A stretch of 57,690 nt of DNA. It comes from Nocardioides sp. (lineage in GTDB: Bacteria > Actinomycetota > Actinomycetes > Propionibacteriales > Nocardioidaceae). Each line of letters begins with the position of its first letter. Position 1 is the stretch's first letter. Made by a program: the position numbers and the translations under genes. Shown piece by piece: positions 3,148 through 31,232 of the stretch. The stretch lies in the NCBI RefSeq assembly GCF_016462705.1, contig NZ_JAEMSS010000002.1:1-57690 (forward strand), read 5' to 3'. Under the pieces are notes generated by a model. The model did not search any database. It saw only the letters and a program-made list of their open reading frames with translations, and had not been told where the DNA came from.

Positions 3148-4232
3148 GCCCAGCCTCCGGCGGTGCGCCGGGCCCGGCGGATGAGCCAGAAGAAGAACGG
3201 GCCGCCGACCAGGGCGGTGAGCATGCCGAGCGGCAGGTCCGCGTAGTCGACCGCGGTGCGCGCCCACAGGTCGGCCAGCACGAGCAGCACCGCACCGCCC
3301 AGCGCACTGGCCGGGACCAGGAGCCGGTGCCCTGGACCGGCGACCAGCCGGACCAGGTGCGGCACGACCAGGCCGACGAACGCGATGATGCCGCAGAAGG
3401 ACACCGCCGCCGCGGTGAGCAGCGCGACCACGACGATGACCCGAAGCCGCAGCCGCTCGACGTCCACGCCGACGTGCCGGGCGGCGCGGTCCCCGAGCGC
3501 GAGCAGGTCGAGCTGGCGCGCCATGAGCAGCGCCGCGACCAGACCGACCGCGGCGATCGGACCGCTGACCGCGACGTACGCCCAGCGCGAGCCGTTGAGG
3601 CTGCCCAGGGTCCAGAAGACGATCTCCTCGCGGGCCTGCTGGTCACCGACGAACATGAGGAACGCGAGCCCGGCGCTGGTCATGGCGTTGAGGGCGACGC
3701 CCGTGAGGACCAGCGTGACCACCTCGGTGCGACCACCGTCCCGGGCGGTGGTGTAGACGAGCAACGTGGTCAGCAGGCCCCCGACGAAGGCGGCGAGGGC
3801 GATGGTCCAGGTGCCCGCGAAGGTCCAGCCGGTCACGATCACGGTGGCCGCGGCCAGCGCCGCACCCGACGAGACGCCCACGACGCCCGGCTCGGCGAGC
3901 GGGTTGCCGAAGACGCCCTGCATCAGGGCCCCCGCGGCCGCGAGCGCGGCACCGGCCAGCGCGGCCATCGCCACCCGGGGGAAGCGGACCTGCCACAGCG
4001 TCGTCTCGCCCTGCGGGTGGCTCGGCAGCGGTCCGAGGTCCAGCCCCAGCCGGTGCAGGACCGACCCGACGACCTCGGCCGGTGACACGTCCAGCTGCCC
4101 GTGGCCCGCGGCGACCACGACCGCGACGACCAGGGCGGCACCCAGCCCGCCGAGCAGCCCGACCCGGGCCAGTCCCCGGCGTACGCCGAGCCGAGGCGTG
4201 ACCCGCGCGCCCACCGGAGCTGCCAGCGTCAC
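3144..4232 (-). CDS. hmuU: Heme ABC transporter permease (FecCD family)
   Basis: 362 aa multi-TM, FRFPR-type QVRFPRVAMAALAGAALAAAGALMQGVFGNPLAEPGVVGVSSGA motif of FecCD permeases. Confidence 0.88.
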   Translation of the reverse strand: MTLAAPVGARVTPRLGVRRGLARVGLLGGLGAALVVAVVVAAGHGQLDVSPAEVVGSVLHRLGLDLGPLPSHPQGETTLWQVRFPRVAMAALAGAALAAAGALMQGVFGNPLAEPGVVGVSSGAALAAATVIVTGWTFAGTWTIALAAFVGGLLTTLLVYTTARDGGRTEVVTLVLTGVALNAMTSAGLAFLMFVGDQQAREEIVFWTLGSLNGSRWAYVAVSGPIAAVGLVAALLMARQLDLLALGDRAARHVGVDVERLRLRVIVVVALLTAAAVSFCGIIAFVGLVVPHLVRLVAGPGHRLLVPASALGGAVLLVLADLWARTAVDYADLPLGMLTALVGGPFFFWLIRRARRTAGGWA

Positions 4233-5323
4233 GACACCGCCTCCGGCGCGTAGATGGCCACGGCCAGGGCGTCCAGGACCGCGGCCGTGGTCGGGCCGAA
4301 CCCGAGGACCTGGGCGTCGTCCATGTCGACGAACCGCCGGTTCTGTCCCGCGGGCGTGGTGGCCAGGGCCGGCAGCCGCTCCAGCAGGCCGTCGACGCCG
4401 CCCGCCGACTCGAGGCCCTTGGTCATGAGCAGCACCAGCTCGGGCGCCGCGGCGACGATGCCCTCGTCCGTGACCGGGCGCATGCCCTTCCAGCCGATCT
4501 CCTCGGCGACGTCGTAGCCGCCGACGCCCTCGATCAGCTGGTCCGCGCCGGACCCGTTCCCGAAGAGGTAGTAGACGCCGGACTGCCCGCGGACGTAGAG
4601 GAAGACGGTGCGCAGCCGGTCACCCGGGTCGGTGGGAGCCACCGCCTCGACCTGGGCACGCACCTCGGCGACCTCGGTCTCGATCCGCTCGGCCAGCATC
4701 CGGCCCGCCTCCTCGACCCCGAGGGCGGCGGCCACCTCCTCGGTCAGGGAGCCGAGGTTGTCGAGCCCGCGGTGCGAGTCGGTGACGACGACGGGGATGC
4801 CCGCGTCCCGCATCTGCAGCACGACGTCCCAGGGGCCGAGCGAGGTGTCGGTCAGGATCACCGTGGGGTCGAGCTCGAGAATGGCCTCGGCCGCCAGGTC
4901 GTGGCCGACGGGGGTGACCAGGGGCAGGTCCGCGGCCTCCGCGAACTGGGTCGAGATGTCGCGGCCGACGACGTGCTGGCCCAGACCCAGCTCGAAGACG
5001 GTGCGAGCCAGGGTCCCGTGCACGTCCAGGGCGAGGATCCGGCTGGTGTCGGTGACGGTGACCCTCGTGCCCTGGGCGTCGGTCACCGTCACCGGGAGCC
5101 GCTGGTCGCCGACCGCGACCGGGTCGACGGGGGTGTCCGGGAGGACCGCCGTGGAGGGGCCCGTCCAGTCGCGCGGGTCCGCCAGCGGGGTCGCCTCCGC
5201 CAGCGAGACCGCGGCCGGCCGATCCGGGTCTCCTCCTTCCGGCGTCGCGGCGGAGGGTCCCTCCAGGCCACAGCCGGTCGTCAGCGTGACGACGAGCAGC
5301 GCGGCGAGCACCAGGCGGTTCAT
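4229..5323 (-). CDS. hmuT: Hemin-binding lipoprotein, ABC substrate-binding protein
   Basis: Lipobox VTLTTGC; periplasmic-binding fold motifs (RILALDVHGTLARTVFELGLGQHVVGRDIST, EIGWKGMRPVTDEGI). Confidence 0.85.
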   Translation of the reverse strand: MNRLVLAALLVVTLTTGCGLEGPSAATPEGGDPDRPAAVSLAEATPLADPRDWTGPSTAVLPDTPVDPVAVGDQRLPVTVTDAQGTRVTVTDTSRILALDVHGTLARTVFELGLGQHVVGRDISTQFAEAADLPLVTPVGHDLAAEAILELDPTVILTDTSLGPWDVVLQMRDAGIPVVVTDSHRGLDNLGSLTEEVAAALGVEEAGRMLAERIETEVAEVRAQVEAVAPTDPGDRLRTVFLYVRGQSGVYYLFGNGSGADQLIEGVGGYDVAEEIGWKGMRPVTDEGIVAAAPELVLLMTKGLESAGGVDGLLERLPALATTPAGQNRRFVDMDDAQVLGFGPTTAAVLDALAVAIYAPEAVS

Positions 5324-5350
5324 GACCCTCCATCGGGTTCGGGAGCGACA

Positions 5351-5369
5351 GTAGGTTAGCCTAGCCTTA
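5351..5369. promoter_or_regulatory. Candidate IdeR/DtxR iron box
   Basis: gtaggttagcctagcctta matches TTAGGTTAGCCTAACCTAA at 16 of 19 positions; lies between divergent hmuT and heme oxygenase. Confidence 0.75.
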
Positions 5370-5413
5370 CTAAGGCTCGCCTCACCGCCTCTCCCTCAGC
5401 CCCAAGGAGCACC

Positions 5414-6079
5414 ATGACCGCCGTGGCCTCACACCTCGACGTGCCGCTGTCGACCGCCATGCGCACCGGTTCGCAGGCCGAGCACGAAGCCGCCGAGGGT
5501 TCCCGGTTCATGACCGAGCTGCTCGCCGGACGGATCAACGAGGTCGGCTACGCGACCTACCTGCTGCGGCTGCGGCAGGTGTACGCCGCCCTGGAGTCGG
5601 TGCCCCGGCTGATGGGTGACGACCCCTACGTCGCCGCCGTCCACGACGACGCCCTCGCCCGGCTGGCCGCGATCGACTCGGACCTCGAGGCCTGGGCGTC
5701 GGGCGCGACGTTGCAGGCCCACTCCCCCGCCGCGACGGCGTACTGCGAGCGGATCCTCGACGCCCGCGCGTGGGGCGGTCTCTACGCCGCCCACCACTAC
5801 ACCCGCTACCTGGGCGACCTGTCCGGAGGCCAGGCGATCGGGCGCATCCTCGACCGGGAGTTCGGCCTGTCCGGCCGCGGGACGGCGTTCTACGACTTCG
5901 CCGGGGTGGGCAAGCCCAAGCCCTACAAGGACGCCTACCGGGCGCGGCTCGACGCCCTCGGAGCGAACGCGGAGGAGAAGCGACGGGTCGTGGAGGAGGT
6001 GAAGGTAGCGTTCCGCCTGAACCAGGCCCTCTTCACCGAGCTGGGACAGGAGATCGATGCCTTCCGCCGCGTCACCTGA
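5414..6079 (+). CDS. hmuO: Heme oxygenase (biliverdin-producing)
   Basis: 221 aa; RTGSQAEHEAAE proximal His region and GDLSGGQAIGRIL motif of heme oxygenases. Confidence 0.9.
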   Translation: MTAVASHLDVPLSTAMRTGSQAEHEAAEGSRFMTELLAGRINEVGYATYLLRLRQVYAALESVPRLMGDDPYVAAVHDDALARLAAIDSDLEAWASGATLQAHSPAATAYCERILDARAWGGLYAAHHYTRYLGDLSGGQAIGRILDREFGLSGRGTAFYDFAGVGKPKPYKDAYRARLDALGANAEEKRRVVEEVKVAFRLNQALFTELGQEIDAFRRVT

Positions 6080-6913: not shown

Positions 6914-8109
6914 ACCAGGGCGGCGAGGCCGACACCGACGAGGACCATCGCCCCACCGATGACGAGCGTCCAGCGGGCGCCGAGCTCCTCGCCGATCAGC
7001 CCGATCAACGGCGCCCCCAGCGGGGTGCCGCCCATCACGACGGTCATGTAGAGGGCCATCACCCGGCCGCGGTAGGCCGGGTCGGCGGCCAGCTGCATGG
7101 TCGCGTTGGCGGAGTTGAGCAGGGTGATCACGAAGAAGCCGATCACCGGCGCGAACAGCGCGAAGGTCAGATAGCTCGGCAGCAGCCCCGCGACGATCTC
7201 GGCGACCCCGAAGCCGGTGGCCGCGAACAGGAGCAGCCGCAGCCGGATCCTCGGACGCCGGGCCGCGAGCAGGGCGCCGGTCAGGGACCCGACCGCGACG
7301 GCGGACCCGAGGACCCCGAACTCGCCGGCGCCCTTGTCGAAGACCTGGGTCGCCATCAGCGCGGAGGTGATCTGGAAGTTCATCCCGAACGTGCCGGCGA
7401 AGAACACGAGGACCAGCACCATCAGCATCGTCGGCTGCGTCCGCACGTAGCGGACGCCGTCGAGGAGCATGCCGGGGGCGCGTGGCTGGATGTCGGCCGG
7501 ATGGAGCTGCGACGCGTCCATCCGGCGCAGCTGCCAGATCACGGCGAAGTAGGAGATCCCGTTGAGCGCGATCACCCAGCCGGCCGCCTCGGCGCCGCTG
7601 CCCAGCAGCGCGATCAGCAGGCCGGCGGACGCCGGGCCGAGGAGCCGGGCCAGGTTGAACGCCGCGCCGTTGAGCCCGACCGCGTTGGTGAGGTCGTCGC
7701 GGTCGACCATCTCGGAGGTGAAGCTCTGCCGGGCGGGCCCGTCGAAGGCGGTGCCGATCCCGAACACGAACGCCAGCACGTAGACCATCCACACCTCGGC
7801 GTGGCCGGACACCGCCAGGGCCCCCAGCATGAGCGAGGAGATCGCCATGCTCAGCTGGGTCAGCTGGAGCAGCGCCCGCTTGGGGAACCGGTCGGCGATC
7901 ACGCCGGCGTACGGCGAGAGCAGCAGGATCGGCAGGAACTGCAGCCCGGTCGTGATGCCGAGCTCCGTGCCGCCGGTCCCCGGGAGGCTCAGGACCAGCC
8001 AGTCCTGGGCGACCCGCTGCATCCAGGTGCCGGTGTTGGAGACGACGCTCCCGGCGAAGTAGAGGCGGAAGTTGTGGTTGCGCTCGAGGGTGCGGAACAT
8101 CTGTGACAT
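6787..8109 (-). CDS. MFS transporter (enterobactin-exporter/DHA3-like)
   Basis: 440 aa multi-TM; FRLYFAGSVVSNTGTWMQRVAQDWLVL motif typical of this MFS subfamily. Confidence 0.85.
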   Translation of the reverse strand: MSQMFRTLERNHNFRLYFAGSVVSNTGTWMQRVAQDWLVLSLPGTGGTELGITTGLQFLPILLLSPYAGVIADRFPKRALLQLTQLSMAISSLMLGALAVSGHAEVWMVYVLAFVFGIGTAFDGPARQSFTSEMVDRDDLTNAVGLNGAAFNLARLLGPASAGLLIALLGSGAEAAGWVIALNGISYFAVIWQLRRMDASQLHPADIQPRAPGMLLDGVRYVRTQPTMLMVLVLVFFAGTFGMNFQITSALMATQVFDKGAGEFGVLGSAVAVGSLTGALLAARRPRIRLRLLLFAATGFGVAEIVAGLLPSYLTFALFAPVIGFFVITLLNSANATMQLAADPAYRGRVMALYMTVVMGGTPLGAPLIGLIGEELGARWTLVIGGAMVLVGVGLAALVYDRSSAGRKNSSVTNGPPTNADSTSSSARVGILDENVSASS

Positions 8110-10100: not shown

Positions 10101-11093
10101 TCAGCCGACCTCGGGCACGTCCGCCACGAGCTGCGGCTCGCGGTGCAGGTAGGCGGTCGTGCTGCGCTTCTGGTCGATGTCGCGGTAGACCCGCTGGACC
10201 TGCTCCACGGTCAGGTCGGTGGCGGCGGCCACCTCCTCGATCGGGACGTCGTGGTTCTTGCCGTAGAGGCACAGGTCCATCCGCTCGTAGGGCAGGGAGA
10301 AGTAGAACTCCTCCTGCGACTGCGGCAGCGAGTAGGTGTCGGTCGTCGACGGGCGGGAGCGGATCTCGGCCGGGACGCCGAGGTGCTCGGCCAGGGCGTA
10401 GACCTGCGACTTGTAGAGGTGCGCGATCGGCTTGACGTCGGCCGAGCCGTCGCCGAGCTTGACGAAGAACCCCTGGTCGTACTCCAGCCGGTTGGGCGTG
10501 CCGGACACGACGTAGTTGAGCCGGTCGGCGTGGTAGTACTCGAGCATCTTCCGCACCCGCTGCTTGAAGTTCGTGGCGGCCACGATGCCCAGGTAGGCGT
10601 CGTGGGTCAGCCGGTGCTTGGTCTCGGTGCCGTCCGGCGCCTGCACCACCACGGAGTAGAGGCGGAAGCTGTCGGAGTCGACGACGCTGGGCAGGACGAT
10701 CTTGGACAGGAACCCCGGCCCGTACTCCGGGACCACCATCCGGATGGCGTCGTCCCGGCGCTGGTAGCAGCCGGCGGCCTCGAGGACCGGCGAGATCTCC
10801 TCGAGGGTCGAGTCGATCCCGAGCGAGTCGGTGAGCTGTCGGCTCAGCGTCAGGGTGTCGGAGGACGACTCCCGCTCGGGCATGTGCAGACCGAACACCC
10901 GCTGCGGCCCGAGGGCGGCCACGCACAGCGCCGCGACCACGCTCGAGTCGATCCCGCCGGAGACGGCGACGACGACGCCCTTCCGCTTGGAGTCCGCGAG
11001 GTAGGCGGTGAGCATCTCGCTGATCCGCGCGGTCTCGGCCTCGGCGTCTATCTCGAGGTTTGCTGCGCTGAAGGGAGTTGCCGAGCTGCTCAT
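10101..11093 (-). CDS. NAD(+) synthase-like ATP pyrophosphatase (NadE family)
   Basis: VVAVSGGIDSSVVAAL PP-loop; GTPNRLEYDQGFFVKLGDGSADVKPIAHLYKSQVY; no nitrilase domain; ATG overlaps upstream gene stop. Confidence 0.85.
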   Translation of the reverse strand: MSSSATPFSAANLEIDAEAETARISEMLTAYLADSKRKGVVVAVSGGIDSSVVAALCVAALGPQRVFGLHMPERESSSDTLTLSRQLTDSLGIDSTLEEISPVLEAAGCYQRRDDAIRMVVPEYGPGFLSKIVLPSVVDSDSFRLYSVVVQAPDGTETKHRLTHDAYLGIVAATNFKQRVRKMLEYYHADRLNYVVSGTPNRLEYDQGFFVKLGDGSADVKPIAHLYKSQVYALAEHLGVPAEIRSRPSTTDTYSLPQSQEEFYFSLPYERMDLCLYGKNHDVPIEEVAAATDLTVEQVQRVYRDIDQKRSTTAYLHREPQLVADVPEVG

Positions 11094-13090
11094 CGAGTGC
11101 TCCTGTCGTGGGTGACGAGGTCGACGGCGACCTCGGGTGGTGGCAGCGCGCGCTCCGCGGCCGCCCAGTCGTGGTGGTCGTCGACGAAGCTGTCGTGGAC
11201 GAGCTGGGTGGAGACGACGGCCAGGACGCGCATGTTGTCGGTGTTGCTCATGTTCTCGCCCCGGGTCCGGTCGCCTTTGGCCATCAGTCCCGCGACCAGG
11301 GCCGGCTCGAAGACGCCCGCCGCCTCGATCGCGCGCCGCGAGGTCAGCTCGTCGACCCAGTCGGGACGGCCCGGGGTGAAGAAGCTCGCCGCGTCCGGGG
11401 CCCGGTAGGGCTGCTTGGGCCGGCGGAGGATGTCGGGCGGCACCAGGTCGCCGAACGCCTGCTTGAGCACGTACTTCTCCTCCATCCCGAACAGCTTGTG
11501 CCGCGCCGGGAGCGTGTTGGCGAGGTCGACCACGTCCCGGTCGAGGAACGGGAACCTGCCCTCCACCGAGTTGGCCATCAGCATCCGGTCTCCCTGCGAG
11601 CTGAGGATGTAGCCGGCCAGCAGCGTCTTCATCTCGAGCCACTGCGCCCGGCTCAGCGGGTCCCAGTCCTCGCTGCCGGCCGGCAGGGACGCCGCCACGT
11701 CGGGCGGGTCGCCGCGCTCGATCTCGGCACGCAGGTCCGCGGACAGGATCCCCTTGACCGTCGAGGTCGAGTCCCAGCGCGGCCGGTGTGACAGCGCGGG
11801 GTCCGCCAGGTCGAGGTTGCGGCCGAAGAACGTCCGCGCGAAGGCGGGCATCCGACCCGGGGAACGGGCCATCCACGGGTAGAGGAGCTCCGCCGCCCGG
11901 GAACGCTTCGCCGACTCGGGGTCGCGCGCCCAGAACATCCGCACCCGCGCCTCGCGGAAGATGTCGTAGCCGGCCAGGACCTCGTCGGCCCCCTCGCCGG
12001 TCACCACGACCTTGTAGCCGTTGTCGCGCACCAGCCTGGAGAGCAGGAACAGCGGTGCGGGCGCCGCCCGGAGGACCGGGGTCTCGGTGTGCCGGACCAC
12101 CTCGGGGAAGACCTCGGCGATGTCGGCGGGCGAGACGACCACGTCCTCGTGCTCGGTCCCGAGCCGCGCCGCCATCTCCTTCTGGAAGCGCCCTTCGTCG
12201 AGCTCGTCCTCGGAGAACCGGAGCGAGAACGTGTGCAGCGGGGCGTCGGTGTACTGCGAGATGACCGCCGCCGTGATCGACGAGTCCAGCCCGCCCGACA
12301 GGTAGGCGCCCACCGGGACGTCGCTGCGCAGGAACCGCAGCCTGGTCGCCTCGACCAGCCGTTCGCGCAGCGCCTCGGCGTTGGCGCGGGCGTCCTGGAC
12401 GGGCTCCCGGCCGCGCTCGGGGAACGAGATGCTCCAGTACGCCGAGGTGCGCAGCCCGTCGCGGTCGAGCACGGCGACGTGTCCTGGCTCGAGCTGCTCG
12501 ATCCCGCGGAACACCGTCCGGGGGGCGACCGTGGACCAGTACGTGAGGGTCTCGTCCAGCCCCGTGGGGTCCAGGGCCCGCTGGGCGGTCGGGTCGGCGA
12601 ACAGCGCCTTCACCTCGGAGGCGAACGCCAGCCCGCCGGGCGTCCGCCGGTAGTAGAGCGGCCGCACCCCCAGCCGGTCCCGGGACAGGACCAGTCGCTC
12701 CTCGCGGCTGTCCCACAGGGCGAGCGCCCACTGCCCGTTGAAGCGGGAGAAGCAGCCCTCGCCCCACTGCTCCCAGGCGTGCACGATCACCTCGGTGTCG
12801 CTGGCGGTGCGGAACCGGTGCCCGTGCCCGCGCAGCTCGTCACGCAGCTCGACGTAGTTGAAGATCTCGCCGTTGAAGGTGACCCACAGCGTCTCGTCCT
12901 CGTTGCACAGCGGCTGGGCTCCGCCCGCGGTGTCGATGATGGCGAGGCGGTTGTGACCGAGTGCCGCCCGCCGGTCCCGGTAGTAGCCGTTGCCGTCGGG
13001 GCCGCGGTGGCCGAGCCGGCCCATCATCCGGCGCAGGAGGTCCAGGTCCGGCGGCGCGCCGGTCGACACGATGCCGCAGATGCCGCACAT
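11090..13090 (-). CDS. asnB: Asparagine synthase (glutamine-hydrolyzing) / amidotransferase
   Basis: MCGICGIVS Ntn glutaminase N-terminus; AYLSGGLDSSITAAV synthetase PP-loop. Confidence 0.92.
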   Translation of the reverse strand: MCGICGIVSTGAPPDLDLLRRMMGRLGHRGPDGNGYYRDRRAALGHNRLAIIDTAGGAQPLCNEDETLWVTFNGEIFNYVELRDELRGHGHRFRTASDTEVIVHAWEQWGEGCFSRFNGQWALALWDSREERLVLSRDRLGVRPLYYRRTPGGLAFASEVKALFADPTAQRALDPTGLDETLTYWSTVAPRTVFRGIEQLEPGHVAVLDRDGLRTSAYWSISFPERGREPVQDARANAEALRERLVEATRLRFLRSDVPVGAYLSGGLDSSITAAVISQYTDAPLHTFSLRFSEDELDEGRFQKEMAARLGTEHEDVVVSPADIAEVFPEVVRHTETPVLRAAPAPLFLLSRLVRDNGYKVVVTGEGADEVLAGYDIFREARVRMFWARDPESAKRSRAAELLYPWMARSPGRMPAFARTFFGRNLDLADPALSHRPRWDSTSTVKGILSADLRAEIERGDPPDVAASLPAGSEDWDPLSRAQWLEMKTLLAGYILSSQGDRMLMANSVEGRFPFLDRDVVDLANTLPARHKLFGMEEKYVLKQAFGDLVPPDILRRPKQPYRAPDAASFFTPGRPDWVDELTSRRAIEAAGVFEPALVAGLMAKGDRTRGENMSNTDNMRVLAVVSTQLVHDSFVDDHHDWAAAERALPPPEVAVDLVTHDRSTR

Positions 13091-13308
13091 CAGGCGTGGC
13101 CCCGCCGCTCGACGAGGTCGGCCACGGAGTCCGGGTCGCCCAGGACGTCGGCCGTGATGTCGTCGTCGGTCAGCACGATGCCGAGGGCGTCCTCGAGCAG
13201 GATGGCGGTCTTGACCGCCTCCAGGTCCGGGTCGGCGCCCGGGTCGCGCAGCTCCTCGGCCTCGCGGAGGACCTGCGCGACCAGGCCGGGCTCCAGGTCA
13301 CCGCTCAC
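13090..13308 (-). CDS. Acyl carrier protein (stand-alone)
   Basis: 72 aa; LEAVKTAILLEDALGIVLTDDDITADVLGDPDSVADLVERR helical ACP-like pattern; my call relies partly on neighbouring AcpS. Confidence 0.6.
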   Translation of the reverse strand: MSGDLEPGLVAQVLREAEELRDPGADPDLEAVKTAILLEDALGIVLTDDDITADVLGDPDSVADLVERRGHA

Positions 13309-13709
13309 GAGGCGCCGCCGTCCGACCAGGTCGCGAGCGCGACGGCGGTGGCGTACTCGTCGCAGTGCGACAGGGAGACCTTGACCGAGCGCACGCCGGC
13401 CCCCTCGGCAGCCAGCCGCAGCGCACCGGACAGGGTCACCGACGGGGTGCCGTCAGGGCCGTTCACGATCTCGATCGACCGCCACGGCAACGGTCCCTCC
13501 CAGGACACCGGCAGCGCCTTCGAGACCGCCTCCTTGGCCGCCATCCGGGCGGCGAAGTGCCGGCTGGGCTCGGCCATCCGGGTGCAGTAGTCGACCTCCA
13601 GCGGGGTGAACCAGCGGTCGAGGAACGCCGCGCCGCGCGCCTCCACCAGCGCCGCGATCCGGGCCACGGACACGATGTCGGTCCCGATGTCGGTCTCGGT
13701 GGCGCCCAC
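13305..13709 (-). CDS. Holo-ACP synthase (4'-phosphopantetheinyl transferase, AcpS type)
   Basis: GTDIVSVARI, RMAAKEAVSKAL, VSLSHCDEYATAVAL motifs. Confidence 0.88.
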   Translation of the reverse strand: MGATETDIGTDIVSVARIAALVEARGAAFLDRWFTPLEVDYCTRMAEPSRHFAARMAAKEAVSKALPVSWEGPLPWRSIEIVNGPDGTPSVTLSGALRLAAEGAGVRSVKVSLSHCDEYATAVALATWSDGGAS

Positions 13710-13712
13710 GGG

Positions 13713-14408
13713 CTAGCGCTCCCCGCCGGGCGCGGTCGAGGCGGCTCGGGCTACGGCTCGGAGCCAGGCCGCGGCCGCGACCTCGGCACCGGCGTCGTTG
13801 AGGTGCCCGAGGTCGGACGCGTAGCCGTCGTGGAGGGCGAAGTAGTCCGCTCCGCCGTGCCGGCCGGTCACCCGGCTGCCGTCGGGCCTGGTCGACTCGG
13901 CCGCGGCGAGGTCGAAGACGTGCCCCCCGGCGTACGCGTCGCGGATCAGGGCGTTCAGCCGCTCGCGGGCGGCGTTCTCGTCCGGACCGTAGCGGTCGTT
14001 GCCGGTGAGCCTCGCCCTGAGCCTCGACAGACCGCCGCGCTCCGTCGTGAGCGGCACGGTCACGTGCACGAAGGTGACCTCGGGGTAGTCCCGCTCCAGG
14101 GCCGCCAGGGTGGCCCGGTAGGTGCCGAACAGCGCCTCGACGTCGGTCCGGGCGGTGACGTCGATGTAGCAGAGCTTCATCATCGCCACGTCGACCCGGT
14201 CGCCGAGGCCGCCGCGCACCCTGGCGTCGAAGTCCTCGATCTTCAGCAGCGGCTGCTCGTTCGCGCCGATGAGGGCGTCCTCGACGACCGGCACCGGTTC
14301 GCCCCGCCCCGCCAGGCGGCGTACGCCGTCGAGCACGTTCTGGCCCACGGACTGGTGGCCGAAGAACACCCGGGGCTCCGGCCGGTGCCCGCTCATGTCC
14401 TCAGCCAA
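13713..14408 (-). CDS. SGNH/GDSL-like hydrolase-type protein (function unknown)
   Basis: 231 aa; VFFGHQSVGQNVLDG start and terminal DLGHLNDAGAEVAAAAW resembling SGNH block V. Confidence 0.5.
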   Translation of the reverse strand: MAEDMSGHRPEPRVFFGHQSVGQNVLDGVRRLAGRGEPVPVVEDALIGANEQPLLKIEDFDARVRGGLGDRVDVAMMKLCYIDVTARTDVEALFGTYRATLAALERDYPEVTFVHVTVPLTTERGGLSRLRARLTGNDRYGPDENAARERLNALIRDAYAGGHVFDLAAAESTRPDGSRVTGRHGGADYFALHDGYASDLGHLNDAGAEVAAAAWLRAVARAASTAPGGER

Positions 14409-15912
14409 CGCCGTGCCCCACCGGGTCGGGCGCCGACGCGAGCTCGCGCAGGCTGGCCTTGGCCGTCTTGCCGTTGGCCGTGAGGGGCAGCGCGTCCAGG
14501 ATCACGACCGTGCTCGGCACCATGTGCTTCGGCAGCTGGGCGCGCATGAAGGACCGGATCTCCTCGGGGCCCACGTCCGCCCCGGGCGCCAGGGTGACGA
14601 ACAGGGCGACCGCCTCACCCGCCTCCTCGTCGGGGACGCCGACCGCGGCGGCCGACACCAGGCCGTCGAGCCGCAGCGCGCAGGCCTCGACCTCCTGGCT
14701 CGAGACCCGGTGGCCCCACGTCTTGATGAAGTCGGCGACCCGGTCGACGATGAAGATGAAGCCCTCGTCGTCGACCACCGCCACGTCGCCGGTCCGCAAC
14801 CCGTCGGGGGTGAACTTGGCGGCGGTCGCCTCCGGGGCGTCGAGATAGCCCGGGCTGATGTTGTCGCCGCGCGCGTAGATCTCGCCGCGCTCGCCCGGCG
14901 CCACCCGTCGGCCCTGCTCGTCGAGGACCCTCAGCTCCACACCGGGGATGCCACGCCCGATCGAGCCGAGCTTGTCGCCCAGCCGCTCGGGTGGCAGGTA
15001 GGACAGCCTGGCGGTCGCCTCGGTCGCGCCGTACATCACGAACAGCTCCGCCTGCGGCTGGGCGGCCCGCAGCTCCTCGATGAGCACCGGCGAGAGCTTG
15101 CCCCCCGCCTGCTGGACGAGCCGGAGCGACGGCAACCTGCGCGAGGCGAAGGTGCTGGCCCGCAGCAGGAGCTGGAACGACGACGGGACACCCGCGAGCA
15201 CGGTGCACCCTTCCTTGTCCAGCAGCTCGATGGCGGTCTCGGGGTAGACGAAGGAGTGGCAGAGCACGACCCGGGCCCCGGCGCGCAGGTGCGTGTGCAG
15301 GATCGACGCGCCGTAGCAGTAGGAGAACGGGAGGATGACCAAGGCCCGGTCGTCGCGGCGCAGGCCGAGGTAGTCGACGATCGAGTCCGTGTTCGCCCGC
15401 ATGTTGCGGTGCGTCACCCGCACCGCCCGCGGGGTCGCCGTCGTACCGGACGTGAACATCAGCACGGCGTCCCCGTCGGGATCCGTGGTGCTGTCCGGCC
15501 AGAACGGGTCACGCGGGGCGGTCAGTGCCTCGTCGGTCAGGACCGGGACCTCGGCCCCGAACGCCGAGTCGAACCTGCGCAGCGTGCGCCGGTCGGCGAG
15601 CACGACGTCGAGCCGCACCAGCCGCGCGTTGCGGCTCACGTCGGCGGGGGTGAGCTTGTCGGAGAACGGGACGGCGACCAGGTCGAGCTTGATGGCCGCG
15701 AGGTAGGCGGCCACCCAGAACAGGGAGTTGGAGCCGAGCACGCCCACCCGAGCTCCCGCTGGCAGCCCGAGGGCCGCCAGCTCGGCCGCGAGCACCCCGG
15801 ACGCGGCGCGCAGCTCGCCGTAGGTGTGGTGCCGGCCGCCGTCGACGAGGGCGACGTCGCCCTCGGATCCCTGCTCGAGCAGGTAGTCGGCGGCGTTGGC
15901 GCCGGCGTTCAC
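14401..15912 (-). CDS. AMP-dependent acyl-CoA/acyl-ACP ligase
   Basis: MFTSGTTATPRAVRVTHRN, VMYGATEATARLSYLPP, LRTGDVAVVDDEGFIFIVDRVADFIKTWGHRVSSQEVE, NGKTAK; GTG start overlapping upstream ACP stop. Confidence 0.9.
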   Translation of the reverse strand: MNAGANAADYLLEQGSEGDVALVDGGRHHTYGELRAASGVLAAELAALGLPAGARVGVLGSNSLFWVAAYLAAIKLDLVAVPFSDKLTPADVSRNARLVRLDVVLADRRTLRRFDSAFGAEVPVLTDEALTAPRDPFWPDSTTDPDGDAVLMFTSGTTATPRAVRVTHRNMRANTDSIVDYLGLRRDDRALVILPFSYCYGASILHTHLRAGARVVLCHSFVYPETAIELLDKEGCTVLAGVPSSFQLLLRASTFASRRLPSLRLVQQAGGKLSPVLIEELRAAQPQAELFVMYGATEATARLSYLPPERLGDKLGSIGRGIPGVELRVLDEQGRRVAPGERGEIYARGDNISPGYLDAPEATAAKFTPDGLRTGDVAVVDDEGFIFIVDRVADFIKTWGHRVSSQEVEACALRLDGLVSAAAVGVPDEEAGEAVALFVTLAPGADVGPEEIRSFMRAQLPKHMVPSTVVILDALPLTANGKTAKASLRELASAPDPVGHGVG

Positions 15913-16205
15913 CCCGGGAGCCGTTCCCCGGTCTCTGCCGGAGTGGCCGGGGCGTGGCCCTGCTTGTGCAGCACGAACCGGGTCAGGTTGCCGACGGTGT
16001 CGAGGTTGCTGGGCACGGTGTCCTCGTCGGCGACCTCGATCTCGAACTGGGACTCCAGGAACTCGATCAGCTCCATCAGGCCGGTGGAGTCGATGATGCC
16101 GCCCTCGACCAGCGAGTCGTCCTCCTGCGGCGCCCGGGACTCGTCCCCGAAGAGGTAGTTGGTGACCACGAAGTCGACCAGCTGCCGCCTGACCTGTGTT
16201 TCCAC
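15909..16205 (-). CDS. Acyl carrier protein
   Basis: DDSLVEGGIIDSTGLMELIEFLESQFEIEV phosphopantetheine motif (DST in place of DSL); GTG start. Confidence 0.85.
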   Translation of the reverse strand: METQVRRQLVDFVVTNYLFGDESRAPQEDDSLVEGGIIDSTGLMELIEFLESQFEIEVADEDTVPSNLDTVGNLTRFVLHKQGHAPATPAETGERLPG

Positions 16206-16392
16206 GCCATCTCCCGTGATTCGTCGTGACCACCGGTCACGACGAGCTCTCCAGGGCAGCCCGCTGCCACCCCCCTGTGACGACTCTAGGCGGCTACCTG
16301 CACGGGTGTGCGGCGAATCGGTCGGGTCGTGGACGACAATGACGGGGGCTCGCCGAGAAATCATCTGACTGGTGAGGCCCGAAGGGGGAGAC

Positions 16393-17085
16393 ATGCCGGC
16401 CACCTGCGTCTGCGAGGGCGCGAGCCTGCGTGACGCGATCAGCGAGGACATCGACCGGTACGTTGCCGCCGCCGAGCGCGACGGGCTGTCGCGCGTCCTT
16501 GCCCGGCTGCGGGTGCCCCTGTCGCTGAAGGTCGCCGCGGTGGCGAACTACCGGCTCAGCCATCTCCTCCTGACCCGGGTGCGGCCCCGTCTCGTCGGCA
16601 GGGTGCTGGGGGGCGTCTCCTTCATCGGTCAGCGGCTGTTCAGCATGGTCACGGGCGTCGAGATCGACCCGCACGCCCACATCGGGCCCGGCCTGATGAT
16701 CCCCCACGACGGCCACATCGTGATCGGTCCGGCCCGCATCGGCCGCAACTGCACCATCTCCCACAGCGTGACGCTCGGCCAGGGGCTGCAGGGCGACGGT
16801 CCCGCCCACGACGACACCCCGATCCTGGGCGACCGGGTGTGGGTCGGCCCGGGTGCGGTCATCGCGGGACCGATCCACGTCGGCTCGGACGCGTCCGTCG
16901 GCGCCAACAGCGTGCTGCTGCGCGACGTGCCGCCCCGGGGCGTCGTGCTCGGCGTGCCCGCCCGGCTCCTGTCCCGCAAGGGCAGCTTCACCCAGATCTA
17001 CTACCGCGGCATGGCCGACGACCCCGATCGGCGCGTGGCCCTGGCCCTGGAAGAGCAGGCCCCCGGCACCGACCCGGGCGCCTAG
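16393..17085 (+). CDS. Serine O-acetyltransferase-like left-handed beta-helix acyltransferase
   Basis: GVEIDPHAHIGPGLMIPHDGHIVIGPARIGRNCTISHSVTLGQG hexapeptide repeats; RBS gggggag before ATG. Confidence 0.85.
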   Translation: MPATCVCEGASLRDAISEDIDRYVAAAERDGLSRVLARLRVPLSLKVAAVANYRLSHLLLTRVRPRLVGRVLGGVSFIGQRLFSMVTGVEIDPHAHIGPGLMIPHDGHIVIGPARIGRNCTISHSVTLGQGLQGDGPAHDDTPILGDRVWVGPGAVIAGPIHVGSDASVGANSVLLRDVPPRGVVLGVPARLLSRKGSFTQIYYRGMADDPDRRVALALEEQAPGTDPGA

Positions 17086-27841: not shown

Positions 27842-30169
27842 CTACCCATCCGTCGGGGGCAGCAGGCTGAAGGCGGTCTCGTTCTCCTGGGCGTTGTGGA
27901 GGCGCAGCACCCCGTAGAGGCCGTACAGCAGCCGGCGGAGCTCGACGACGTCCTCGGGCTGGACGTCCGCGTCCGGGATGTCCGCCAGCAGCCGCCCCAG
28001 ACGAGCCACCTGGTGCTCGATCTCGGCGTGCGTCCTGGTCAGGGAGTACGTCGCCGACGGGCCCAGTGCTCGGGCCACGAGCGGCACCAGGTGCTCCTGG
28101 TCGGCGCGCTCGTGGGTGAGCAGGTCCGAGCGCAGGCGCCCCAGCAGCCGGCGCGCCGGTGCGAGCTGGGGCTGGTCGGTGCTGAGCCGGTCGGCGACGG
28201 CACGGATCTCCTCCACCACGGGGAGGGCCGCCTCGTGCTGGGCGTGCAGCTCGCGACCGAGGGCCACGTCGGCCGGGGTCATCGTCACCGTGTGGGTCCG
28301 CCCCGGAAGCACCGCCCGCAGGGCCAGTCCGATCGCCAGGACGTCGATGCCCTCCTGCAGCACCGCGCCCGCAGCCGGTGGGAGCAGGCCGGCCGCGGCG
28401 GCGACCATCGCGACCAGGGACAGACCCATCCCCGTGCCGACGGCCTGCCGGGCGATCCGCCGGGATCGCTGGGCGATGAGGATGGCATCGGCGAGGGCGT
28501 CGACCCGGTCGACGGTGAGGACGACGTCGGCGGCCTCGGACGACGCCGTCGCTCCCCTCGCGGCGAGGGCGACGCCGACGTCGGCGGCGGCCAGCGCCGG
28601 GGCGTCGTTCACCCCGTCACCCACCATCATCGTGGTGCCGCCCTCGCGCTCGGCGGTGATCACCGCGAGCTTCTCGCCGGGGTCGCACTCGGCCCGGACG
28701 GCGTCGGTCCCGACGATCCGGCCCACGGTCTCGGCGGTGTCGGCGCGGTCCCCGGTGAGCAGGACGACGCGGCGGATCCCGGCATCGCGCAGGCCGTGGA
28801 CCATCCGCGGAGCGTCCGGACGGATGACGTCCTCGAGGAGGAACGCGCCGGCCGCGGTGCCGTCGACGGCGACGAACACCACCATCGAGTCGTCCAGGCT
28901 GGCCCGGCGCCGTGCCCGCAGCACCCAGTCGGGCACCGGGTCGGGGACGATCCAGGACTGCTTGCCGAGCGCGACCCGGTGCTGCCCGACCAGGCCGCTG
29001 AGGCCGTACCCGTGCTCCTCGGCCACCTGCTCGGGCATCTCCAGGGTCAGCCCGCGGGCGCTCGCAGCGGACACGATCGCGGTCGCGAGGACGTGCGGCG
29101 ACATCTGGTCCAGCGACGCGGCCAGCTGCAGCAGCCGGTCCGTGGGGAAGTCGTCCCCTCCCGGGATGACCTCGACGACCTGGGGCTGGCCCCGGGTCAG
29201 GGTGCCGGTCTTGTCGAAGACGATGACGCGGGCGTCGGCGAGCCGCTCGAGCGCGCCGCCACCCTTGATGACCACCCCGACCCGCGTGGCCCGTGACAGA
29301 CCAGAGATGTAGGCGATGGGTGCCGCCAGGAGGAGGGGGCAGGGGGTCGCGACGACGAGCACGGCGACGGCCCGGACGCGGTCCGCGCTCACCGCCCAGG
29401 CGCCGCCGGCGAGCACCAGGGTCACGGGGACGAACAGGAGAGCCAGCCGGTCGGCCAGGCGGACGAAGGGAGCCGACGACGCCTGGGCCTGCTCCACCAG
29501 ACGCACGAGACCGGCGTACGTGGAGTCCGCGGCGCTCGCGTTGGCCAGCAGGTCGAAGGGCGCGCCGGCGTTCACCGCTCCGCTGCGAGCCGTCTCGCCC
29601 ACCAGGCGCTCCACCGGGAGCGGCTCGCCGGTCAGCGCCGACTCGTCCAGGGTCGCCGCGGTGAGCAGCCGGCCGTCCACCGGCACCACCTCGCCGGTGC
29701 GGACCACCAGGCGGTCCCCCGGGGTGACCGCACCGACGTCGACCTCCTCGACGCCCTCGGCCACCCGGCGCCGAGCGGTGCGCGGCGCGCGCTCGAGGAG
29801 CAGCCGCAGCTCGCGACGGGCCCGGGCCTCGGCCCGAGCCTCGAGCAGCTGCCCGCTGGCCAGCATCACGGTGATCACCGCGCCCGCGAAGTACTCCCCC
29901 ACCACGAGCGCGCCGACCAGGGCGAGCAGGGCGATCACGTCGACGGTGGGACGCCGGCGGCGAACCGCCGTGGCCGTCTCGGCGACCGAGGCCACCAGAC
30001 CCACCACGGTCCCCATGAGCCACAGGACCTCGGCGGCATCGGCTCCGCCGCCCAGCCGAAGGCCGCCTCCCACGGCGAGGAGCACCGAGGACACCACGAA
30101 CAGCGGCAGCGCGACCCGGCTGCGGACCTCCTCCACCACCCCAGACCACCCGACCGGGCGACGGGTCAC
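27842..30169 (-). CDS. P1B-type heavy-metal ATPase (TPCP motif, P1B-5-like) with C-terminal hemerythrin-like domain
   Basis: VATPCPLLLAAP, VFDKTGTLTRG, MVGDGVNDAPALAAADVGVAL; C-terminal H-x3-HE / HERADQEH / THAEIEH / HNAQENE pattern. Start uncertain (GTG 30169, alternative ATG 30220). Confidence 0.85.
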   Translation of the reverse strand: MTRRPVGWSGVVEEVRSRVALPLFVVSSVLLAVGGGLRLGGGADAAEVLWLMGTVVGLVASVAETATAVRRRRPTVDVIALLALVGALVVGEYFAGAVITVMLASGQLLEARAEARARRELRLLLERAPRTARRRVAEGVEEVDVGAVTPGDRLVVRTGEVVPVDGRLLTAATLDESALTGEPLPVERLVGETARSGAVNAGAPFDLLANASAADSTYAGLVRLVEQAQASSAPFVRLADRLALLFVPVTLVLAGGAWAVSADRVRAVAVLVVATPCPLLLAAPIAYISGLSRATRVGVVIKGGGALERLADARVIVFDKTGTLTRGQPQVVEVIPGGDDFPTDRLLQLAASLDQMSPHVLATAIVSAASARGLTLEMPEQVAEEHGYGLSGLVGQHRVALGKQSWIVPDPVPDWVLRARRRASLDDSMVVFVAVDGTAAGAFLLEDVIRPDAPRMVHGLRDAGIRRVVLLTGDRADTAETVGRIVGTDAVRAECDPGEKLAVITAEREGGTTMMVGDGVNDAPALAAADVGVALAARGATASSEAADVVLTVDRVDALADAILIAQRSRRIARQAVGTGMGLSLVAMVAAAAGLLPPAAGAVLQEGIDVLAIGLALRAVLPGRTHTVTMTPADVALGRELHAQHEAALPVVEEIRAVADRLSTDQPQLAPARRLLGRLRSDLLTHERADQEHLVPLVARALGPSATYSLTRTHAEIEHQVARLGRLLADIPDADVQPEDVVELRRLLYGLYGVLRLHNAQENETAFSLLPPTDG

Positions 30170-30218
30170 CAGAGGCCTTCGTCCCACCGCGACCCGCCCA
30201 GCCGTGATGATGAGGACC

Positions 30219-31232
30219 ATGCAGGTCGTCGCGAGGCTCCACGCCGTGGGCGACCTCCGGGTCGAGGAGTCCGCCGGCCCGCCCGCGCCCCTGGCGGGTT
30301 GGTCCACCGTCGCCGTCACGTCGGTCGGGCTGTGCGGCTCGGACCTGCACTGGTTCGCCGACGGCGGCACCGGCGAGGTCTCGATCGACGCGCCGGTGGT
30401 GCCGGGGCACGAGCTCGCCGGCGTGGCGCTGGACGGGCCGTACGCCGGACGGCGGGTGGCGGTCGACCCGGCCATCCCGTGCGGACGGTGCGAGTCGTGC
30501 CGCGCGGGGCACGCGAACCTCTGCCCGGAGGTGCGGTTCGCCGGCCACCAGGACCTCGACGGGGGTCTCCAGGAGCGCCTGCTCTGGCCGGACGAGCTGC
30601 TGGTCCCCCTGCCGGACAGCCTCAGCGACGACGCCGGGGCCCTGCTCGAGCCACTGGGCGTCGCGATCCACGCCGTCAAGCACGCGCACGTCCGGCCGGG
30701 CCACGACGTGCTCGTGGTCGGGGCCGGTCCGCTCGGCGTGCTGGCGGGCGCGGTCGCCCGCCGCGCGGGCGCGGCACGGGTCCTCGTGTCCGAGCCACTC
30801 GAGCACCGCCGCCTGACCGCGCTGCGCTTCGGCGCGGACGCGGCCTGGGCGCCGGACTCGGTCCAGGACGAGGTCATGAGGGCGACGGCGGGGCGCGGTG
30901 TCGACGTCGTCGTCGAGATGGCCGGGACGGACGACGCGATCGCCACCGCCGTGATGTGCGCGCGGCCCGGCGCCCGGGTCGCGCTGGGCGGGATCCCGTC
31001 CACGCCGCAGTCCGCCTTCCCGGCCGCTGCGGCTCGCCGCAAGGGCCTGACCTTCGCGATGGTCAGGCGGATGCACGACACCTACGCGCAGGCGGTCGAG
31101 CTCGCGACGACGGGCATCGACCTCGACGGGCTGGTCAGCGACCGCTTCCCGCTCGGCCGGTCGCCCGAGGCGTTCGAGCACGCCGTCGGCCGCACCGGTG
31201 ACAAGACGGTCATCGTCGTGTCGCGGTCCTGA
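30219..31232 (+). CDS. Zinc-dependent alcohol dehydrogenase (idonate/sorbitol dehydrogenase-like)
   Basis: GLCGSDLHWFADGG, PGHELAG, CGRCESCRAGHANLC, VVGAGPLGVL. Confidence 0.9.
   Translation: MQVVARLHAVGDLRVEESAGPPAPLAGWSTVAVTSVGLCGSDLHWFADGGTGEVSIDAPVVPGHELAGVALDGPYAGRRVAVDPAIPCGRCESCRAGHANLCPEVRFAGHQDLDGGLQERLLWPDELLVPLPDSLSDDAGALLEPLGVAIHAVKHAHVRPGHDVLVVGAGPLGVLAGAVARRAGAARVLVSEPLEHRRLTALRFGADAAWAPDSVQDEVMRATAGRGVDVVVEMAGTDDAIATAVMCARPGARVALGGIPSTPQSAFPAAAARRKGLTFAMVRRMHDTYAQAVELATTGIDLDGLVSDRFPLGRSPEAFEHAVGRTGDKTVIVVSRS

Follow-up and report, generated by a model that had tools for sequence, protein, structure and literature searches.

The window analysed here is the whole of a 57,690-nt stretch of Nocardioides sp. 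DNA (assembly GCF_016462705.1, contig NZ_JAEMSS010000002.1, positions 1 to 57,690). It carries a compact operon of seven contiguous open genes on the minus strand, running from 16205 to 10101, which probably loads a small acid onto a carrier protein and adds nitrogen. From position 16205 the gene order is an acyl carrier protein (ACP1), an AMP-forming ligase, an SGNH-type hydrolase, AcpS, an ACP-like protein, AsnB and a NadE-fold protein. Neighbouring genes overlap by 1-8 nt at five of the six junctions and are 3 nt apart at the other, which bears out the tight packing described in an initial annotation of the same DNA. Tentatively, and at somewhat less than an even chance, we read the operon as a mobile accessory pathway for carrier-bound acyl or amide decoration, most often of surface polysaccharide. 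The reading draws on polysaccharide genes near the module in relatives, on the N-terminal segments of the SGNH enzymes and their carbohydrate O-acyl esterase/transferase fold, and on intact catalytic motifs.

The genes of the module are conserved together far outside this genome. A genome collection was scanned with the NadE-fold protein, giving 370 encoding stretches, and 80 of these were retained as relatives; locus counts given below refer to the window plus these 80 relatives (81 loci). AsnB was found in 76 loci, the ligase in 68, ACP1 in 66, the SGNH protein in 48, AcpS in 42, the ACP-like domain in 37 and the hexapeptide acyltransferase, whose gene is divergent from the operon in the window, in 26; several of the absences are contig ends. 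Ordinary NadE genes served as controls: at the same thresholds, none of the 12 regions of 20 kb around them contained any module family. The loci span at least ten phyla (Actinomycetota, Spirochaetota, Planctomycetota, Fibrobacterota, Acidobacteriota, Nitrospirota, Thermodesulfobacteriota, Myxococcota, Verrucomicrobiota and Pseudomonadota), so the set is not a peculiarity of one genome; had it been one, the initial annotation would have counted its proposal as refuted.

Searches of Pfam and NCBIfam support the family calls for the ligase, AcpS, AsnB, the NadE-fold protein and the hexapeptide gene. No ketosynthase or condensation domain was matched in any of the eight proteins with either database, in agreement with the earlier view that this is not a canonical polyketide or nonribosomal peptide synthetase (NRPS) locus. 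That view also described a carrier-protein amidation set with two ACPs. The amidation set fits all of the findings, and the first ACP has its phosphopantetheine serine, but the second, although ACP-like, does not and could not be loaded.

ACP1 (15909-16205, minus strand) is free-standing, with the attachment serine in GIIDST. It scores 17.0 bits against PF00550, slightly below the cut-off of 20.8, and matches carrier proteins in the PDB at 5e-6, with weak matches to the solved peptidyl carrier proteins 2my5 and PigG. The motif [IV][IV]DST is present in 52 module ACP1 sequences (IIDST in the window copy). On its attachment serine and family match, ACP1 can be taken as a carrier protein. Its gene overlaps at GTGA with that of the ligase (14401-15912, minus strand, about 503 aa; PF00501 at 1.9e-72 and PF13193). 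The ligase clade has the signature Y[CVI][FY]G.SLLHTHL. A closer inspection of the alignment with LgrA reveals FSYC in the window ligase where LgrA has FSFD, with Cys, Val or Ile at this position in most of the clade; NRPS adenylation domains bind the alpha-amino group through an Asp, which the window ligase does not have. FD is retained at that position in the Sinorhizobium meliloti ligase and in XrtA-type ligases, and two subtypes, YCYG and FDYG, occur among the modules. To judge from these residues, the acid loaded by the window subtype is probably not an ordinary alpha-amino acid. The ligase varies while ACP1, AsnB and NadE stay constant, which suggests a variable acid combined with a fixed nitrogen chemistry.

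The second carrier-like protein (13090-13308, minus strand, 72 aa) is encoded directly upstream of AsnB and has no match in Pfam or NCBIfam. An iterated profile, which connects to true ACPs, found the domain in its 37 loci nearly always just before AsnB. The AlphaFold model is a four-helix fold (pLDDT 86.6), for which the top Foldseek ranks are carrier proteins, all with E > 0.1. The attachment serine is absent from all 20 aligned sequences, the window copy having Asp there; judged by this residue, the protein is not a working ACP and cannot be loaded. Two Catellatospora loci (L035, at 7307-7978, and L038) encode the domain joined to AcpS, and four Nocardioides loci (L046-L049; for example L049 7036-7944) encode it joined to the hexapeptide acyltransferase. 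Because of these fusions it is considered part of the system.

AsnB (11090-13090, minus strand, 666 aa) is a glutamine-dependent amidotransferase scoring 507 bits on TIGR01536. It retains the glutaminase Cys2, the SGGLDSS loop, E336 and K559; judged by their positions, the last two would be the residues that serve acyl adenylation in AsnB enzymes. Its best match in the PDB is the hydroxyamidotransferase 7ylz. The NadE-fold ATP pyrophosphatase (10101-11093, minus strand, 330 aa) has no glutaminase domain, and retains the ATP loop and the GDG..D motif. It passes NF002048 (PRK00876) with 516 bits against a cut-off of 313, which places the NadE-like enzyme of the initial annotation in that subfamily. 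Since the NCBI label of this family is NAD(+) synthase, AsnB and NadE might be spare housekeeping enzymes for asparagine and NAD supply that lie beside an ACP system by chance. We regard this as very improbable. A complete glutamine-dependent NAD synthetase is encoded elsewhere in the genome, which argues that the module NadE is specialised. Moreover, the protein has a family-specific insert at about residues 107-170, where it has no close similarity to solved NAD synthetases, and the family has a conserved motif of its own, TTDTYS..Q.Q.EFYF, unlike those enzymes. Together with the co-conservation of both enzymes with the ACP and ligase in many phyla, the separate NAD synthetase led us to reject a housekeeping role.

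The dedicated AcpS reported earlier is confirmed (13305-13709, minus strand), with PF01648 at 9.6e-17 and TIGR00516 at 83.7 bits, the latter above its cut-off. The SGNH-type hydrolase or esterase (13713-14408, minus strand, 231 aa, without a membrane anchor) has no Pfam match, and its assignment comes from the conserved triad and the predicted fold. Residues S20, N50, D199 and H202, in the serine, Gly-x-Asn and Asp-x-x-His blocks, are invariant among 25 relatives, and the AlphaFold model (pLDDT 93) matches PAF-acetylhydrolase, sialate O-acetylesterase and the peptidoglycan O-acetyltransferase PatB in Foldseek. On these grounds the SGNH-like call stands. In most relatives the SGNH protein has an N-terminal membrane or lipoprotein segment and a loop of about 22 residues, both of which are missing from the window copy.

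The hexapeptide acyltransferase (16372-17085, plus strand) is CysE-like, with PF00132, and diverges from the operon as first described. It is 54% identical to a divergent copy in L042, the closest relative, and in other relatives it is encoded beside ACP1 or as a fusion with the ACP-like domain. The intergenic region between the divergent genes (16206-16371) is likely to hold the promoters of both, as predicted from the gene layout. Genes adjoining the module in the window, where scanned, encode unrelated enzymes.

The module AsnB is present in 14 of 101 genomes of the genus, and at the strict cut-off NadE was found only in the window genome and one other among 397 genomes of the phylum; the module is therefore considered accessory and patchy. 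The gene order of the window recurs in eight relatives, which come from Mycobacteriaceae, Micromonosporaceae and an uncultured actinomycete. One of them, L034, has no detectable ligase and an eroded SGNH gene. In the AsnB tree the window and these eight collinear relatives form one clade (SH-aLRT 98), and other Nocardioides copies fall elsewhere. A methyltransferase gene adjoining the module is widespread in the genus and, by its coordinates, is unlinked from the module in genome G017. The tree and the unlinked methyltransferase fit transfer of the operon as a block. The GC content, 0.719 for the module and 0.723 for the rest of the window, lends no support to a recent acquisition from DNA of foreign composition, even though the AsnB tree groups the module with other families.

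The link to surface polysaccharide comes from the neighbourhoods of the relatives. Near the module, 46 of 80 relatives have one or more conserved neighbour clusters that are represented by a Wzx-type flippase, an O-antigen ligase, a Wzz/Wzc-like protein, a glycosyltransferase or an exosortase, a count that rises to 56 when a mixed cluster of glycosyltransferases and sugar transferases is included. The Azospirillum copy lies directly after genes for a sugar transferase, an O-antigen ligase and a glycosyltransferase. The initial annotation had set a connection to exopolysaccharide (EPS) loci aside. It was right that no exosortase or glycosyltransferase is near the module, and no exosortase was found in the genome bin either (88% complete), but EPS neighbours are common in the relatives. 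Two sugar transferases are encoded on other contigs of the bin, one of them adjoining probable rhamnose-sugar genes.

Several observations weigh against decoration of a polysaccharide. The census was made by sequence clusters, with only the representatives scanned against Pfam and NCBIfam. No glycosyltransferase, flippase or exporter was found near the module in the window or in L042, which for the window agrees with the lack of an exporter recorded earlier. The four-gene core stands alone on pSymB of Sinorhizobium and on plasmids of Mesorhizobium and Shinella. The window SGNH protein, as far as its N-terminus tells, looks cytosolic, unlike its relatives. Finally, neither substrate nor product can be read from the sequence.

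The main competing explanation draws its weight from the stand-alone core in Rhizobiaceae and in the window. It holds that what is made on the carrier is a small free molecule (an acyl amide metabolite, an osmolyte or a signal) and that the polysaccharide neighbours are incidental. We consider this possible, if less probable than decoration. The stand-alone core operon is found in Rhizobiaceae and their relatives as well as in the window; AsnB scores 372 bits on TIGR03104, the model of the amidotransferase for the osmolyte NAGGN, albeit below the cut-off of 570; and the patchy spread within the genus is as expected of accessory metabolism. Against it, 46-56 of the 80 relatives have polysaccharide genes near the module, exosortase loci among them, the SGNH enzyme is predicted from its N-terminal segment to be exported in most relatives, and there is no conserved exporter or release enzyme.

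Among characterised systems, the XrtA/PEP-CTERM set of EPS loci (TIGR03098 ligase, TIGR03099 decarboxylase and TIGR03108 amidotransferase) resembles the module in combining an AMP-ligase, a small ACP and an AsnB-type enzyme. The module could be a divergent branch of these accessory genes (ligase_PEP_1, dCO2ase_PEP1, eps_aminotran_1). Of the specific models, TIGR03098 and TIGR03108 are indeed among the best for the ligase and AsnB; exosortase-like genes lie near the module in ten loci, mostly of Planctomycetota; and true TIGR03098 and TIGR03099 genes lie beside it in the Nocardioides loci L046-L049. In these loci the true XrtA-type ligase and a PLP decarboxylase are encoded near 12700-15570, and Wzz-like and O-antigen ligase genes are present. 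Nevertheless, we judge such a branch improbable. Both models are far below cut-off (ligase 303 bits against 592; AsnB 445 bits against 816.9), the XrtA-type ligase of L046-L049 is separate from the AsnB-NadE core, and the operon has neither decarboxylase nor exosortase, adding instead a NadE-fold enzyme, AcpS, the SGNH protein and the serine-less domain. An exosortase role in the window genome was rejected, as TIGR02602 had no match in its 88% complete bin.

The Dlt D-alanylation system (DltA ligase, DltC carrier and DltD) likewise pairs a ligase with a dedicated carrier for surface decoration. The likeness of ACP1 to DltC models is weak (23 bits against a cut-off of 68, and 16.7 against 52), no MBOAT protein (DltB) was matched among the eight proteins, the window ligase is without the amino-acid-binding Asp, and AsnB and NadE are present. 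These tests place the module outside the XrtA, Dlt and NAGGN families. In butirosin biosynthesis, the free-standing ACP BtrI and the ligase BtrJ build a nitrogen-bearing acyl group on the carrier. The module differs in having AsnB and NadE in place of a PLP decarboxylase, an oxygenase and aminoglycoside genes.

A precedent for the amidation step is WbpS, an AsnB-family enzyme with a role in uronamide synthesis (PMC3684757). WbpS and the hydroxyamidotransferase form amides on carboxylates other than that of aspartate, as proposed here for the module, although no uronate or hydroxylamine genes were recognised in the window. To our knowledge, neither enzyme has been reported with a carrier protein and NadE set. 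A search of the open-access literature on EPS, exosortases, floc formation, capsules and natural products found no description of the gene set or its relatives and no characterised pathway with the same genes; the discovery of such a pathway was a way in which, by its own account, the initial annotation could have been wrong. Papers on Rubrivivax and Thauera EPS mention WbpS-like asparagine synthases but not the ACP set, and the module's enzymes do not appear in the 2006 paper on PEP-CTERM. As only open-access literature was covered, this is weak evidence of novelty.

The gene content, the close packing, the co-conservation, the catalytic residues and the missing serine of the second ACP are observed here. 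Taking decoration of a surface polysaccharide as the working model, we infer the substrate, the order of steps, the acceptor and the scaffold role as follows. AcpS would make holo-ACP1, and the ligase would adenylate a small carboxylic acid and then load it onto ACP1. AsnB, with nitrogen from glutamine, and the NadE-fold enzyme, with ammonia, may form amides at free carboxylates on the tethered group or on an acceptor sugar. The serine-less ACP-like domain would help AsnB to dock or act as its scaffold. The divergently encoded hexapeptide enzyme would pass the finished group to its acceptor, in most cases a surface-polysaccharide sugar, and the SGNH enzyme might take off or trim acyl groups. 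A bolder and more doubtful version is that this is a new carrier chemistry, in which AsnB and a NadE-fold ammonia ligase would act on an ACP-tethered substrate, a dead ACP paralogue would dock the loaded carrier to AsnB, the acyl starter would vary with the two ligase subtypes over a constant nitrogen chemistry, and the product would be a substituent new to bacterial glycans or metabolites.

Some further features were noted in and around these loci. In L042 the module is flanked by genes for an eCIS-core domain protein and a beta-helix protein (211-978 and 1056-2936), which are not polysaccharide genes. In Actinomycetota, very large proteins that contain DUF4082, DMFA2_C and Ig-like domains recur near the module (a cluster of 20 loci; for example L054 1180-5943, minus strand). 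A putative recurrent protein of 370 aa and unassigned family is encoded within 15 kb of the module on Rhizobiales plasmids (L145 13048-14825, L144 26384-28326 and L147 7123-8229); at two of these three loci a methyltransferase accompanies it. Elsewhere in the window, the open frame of a P-type ATPase (27842-31081, minus strand) has a hemerythrin domain at the C-terminus of the same protein, and at 4229-6079 a putative haemin-binding lipoprotein gene, judged by eye, is divergent from a haem-oxygenase-like gene.

The same four core families are contiguous on pSymB of S. meliloti, in the order asnB, acyl carrier protein, class I adenylate-forming enzyme and nadE, with no adjacent glycosyltransferase. 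This operon (L144 11166-15972; CP140959.1 279513-284319) lies about 2.5 kb upstream of minCDE, and its function is unassigned in the records. In S. meliloti 1021 its nadE is at NC_003078.1 1450588-1451553, minus strand. Its AsnB is 49% and its ACP1 42% identical to the window proteins, but it has an FDYG-type ligase and is without AcpS, SGNH and ACP-like genes. A search of plasmids gave 117 records, the majority from Sinorhizobium. Hundreds of genome contigs in distant phyla, this model symbiont included, have the same type of NadE, with the nadE member annotated as an ordinary NAD(+) synthase. If our reading is true, the module would be a clear case of a serine-less ACP kept under selection, probably as a protein-protein adaptor, and an unassigned biosynthetic pathway would be testable in one well-tooled organism.

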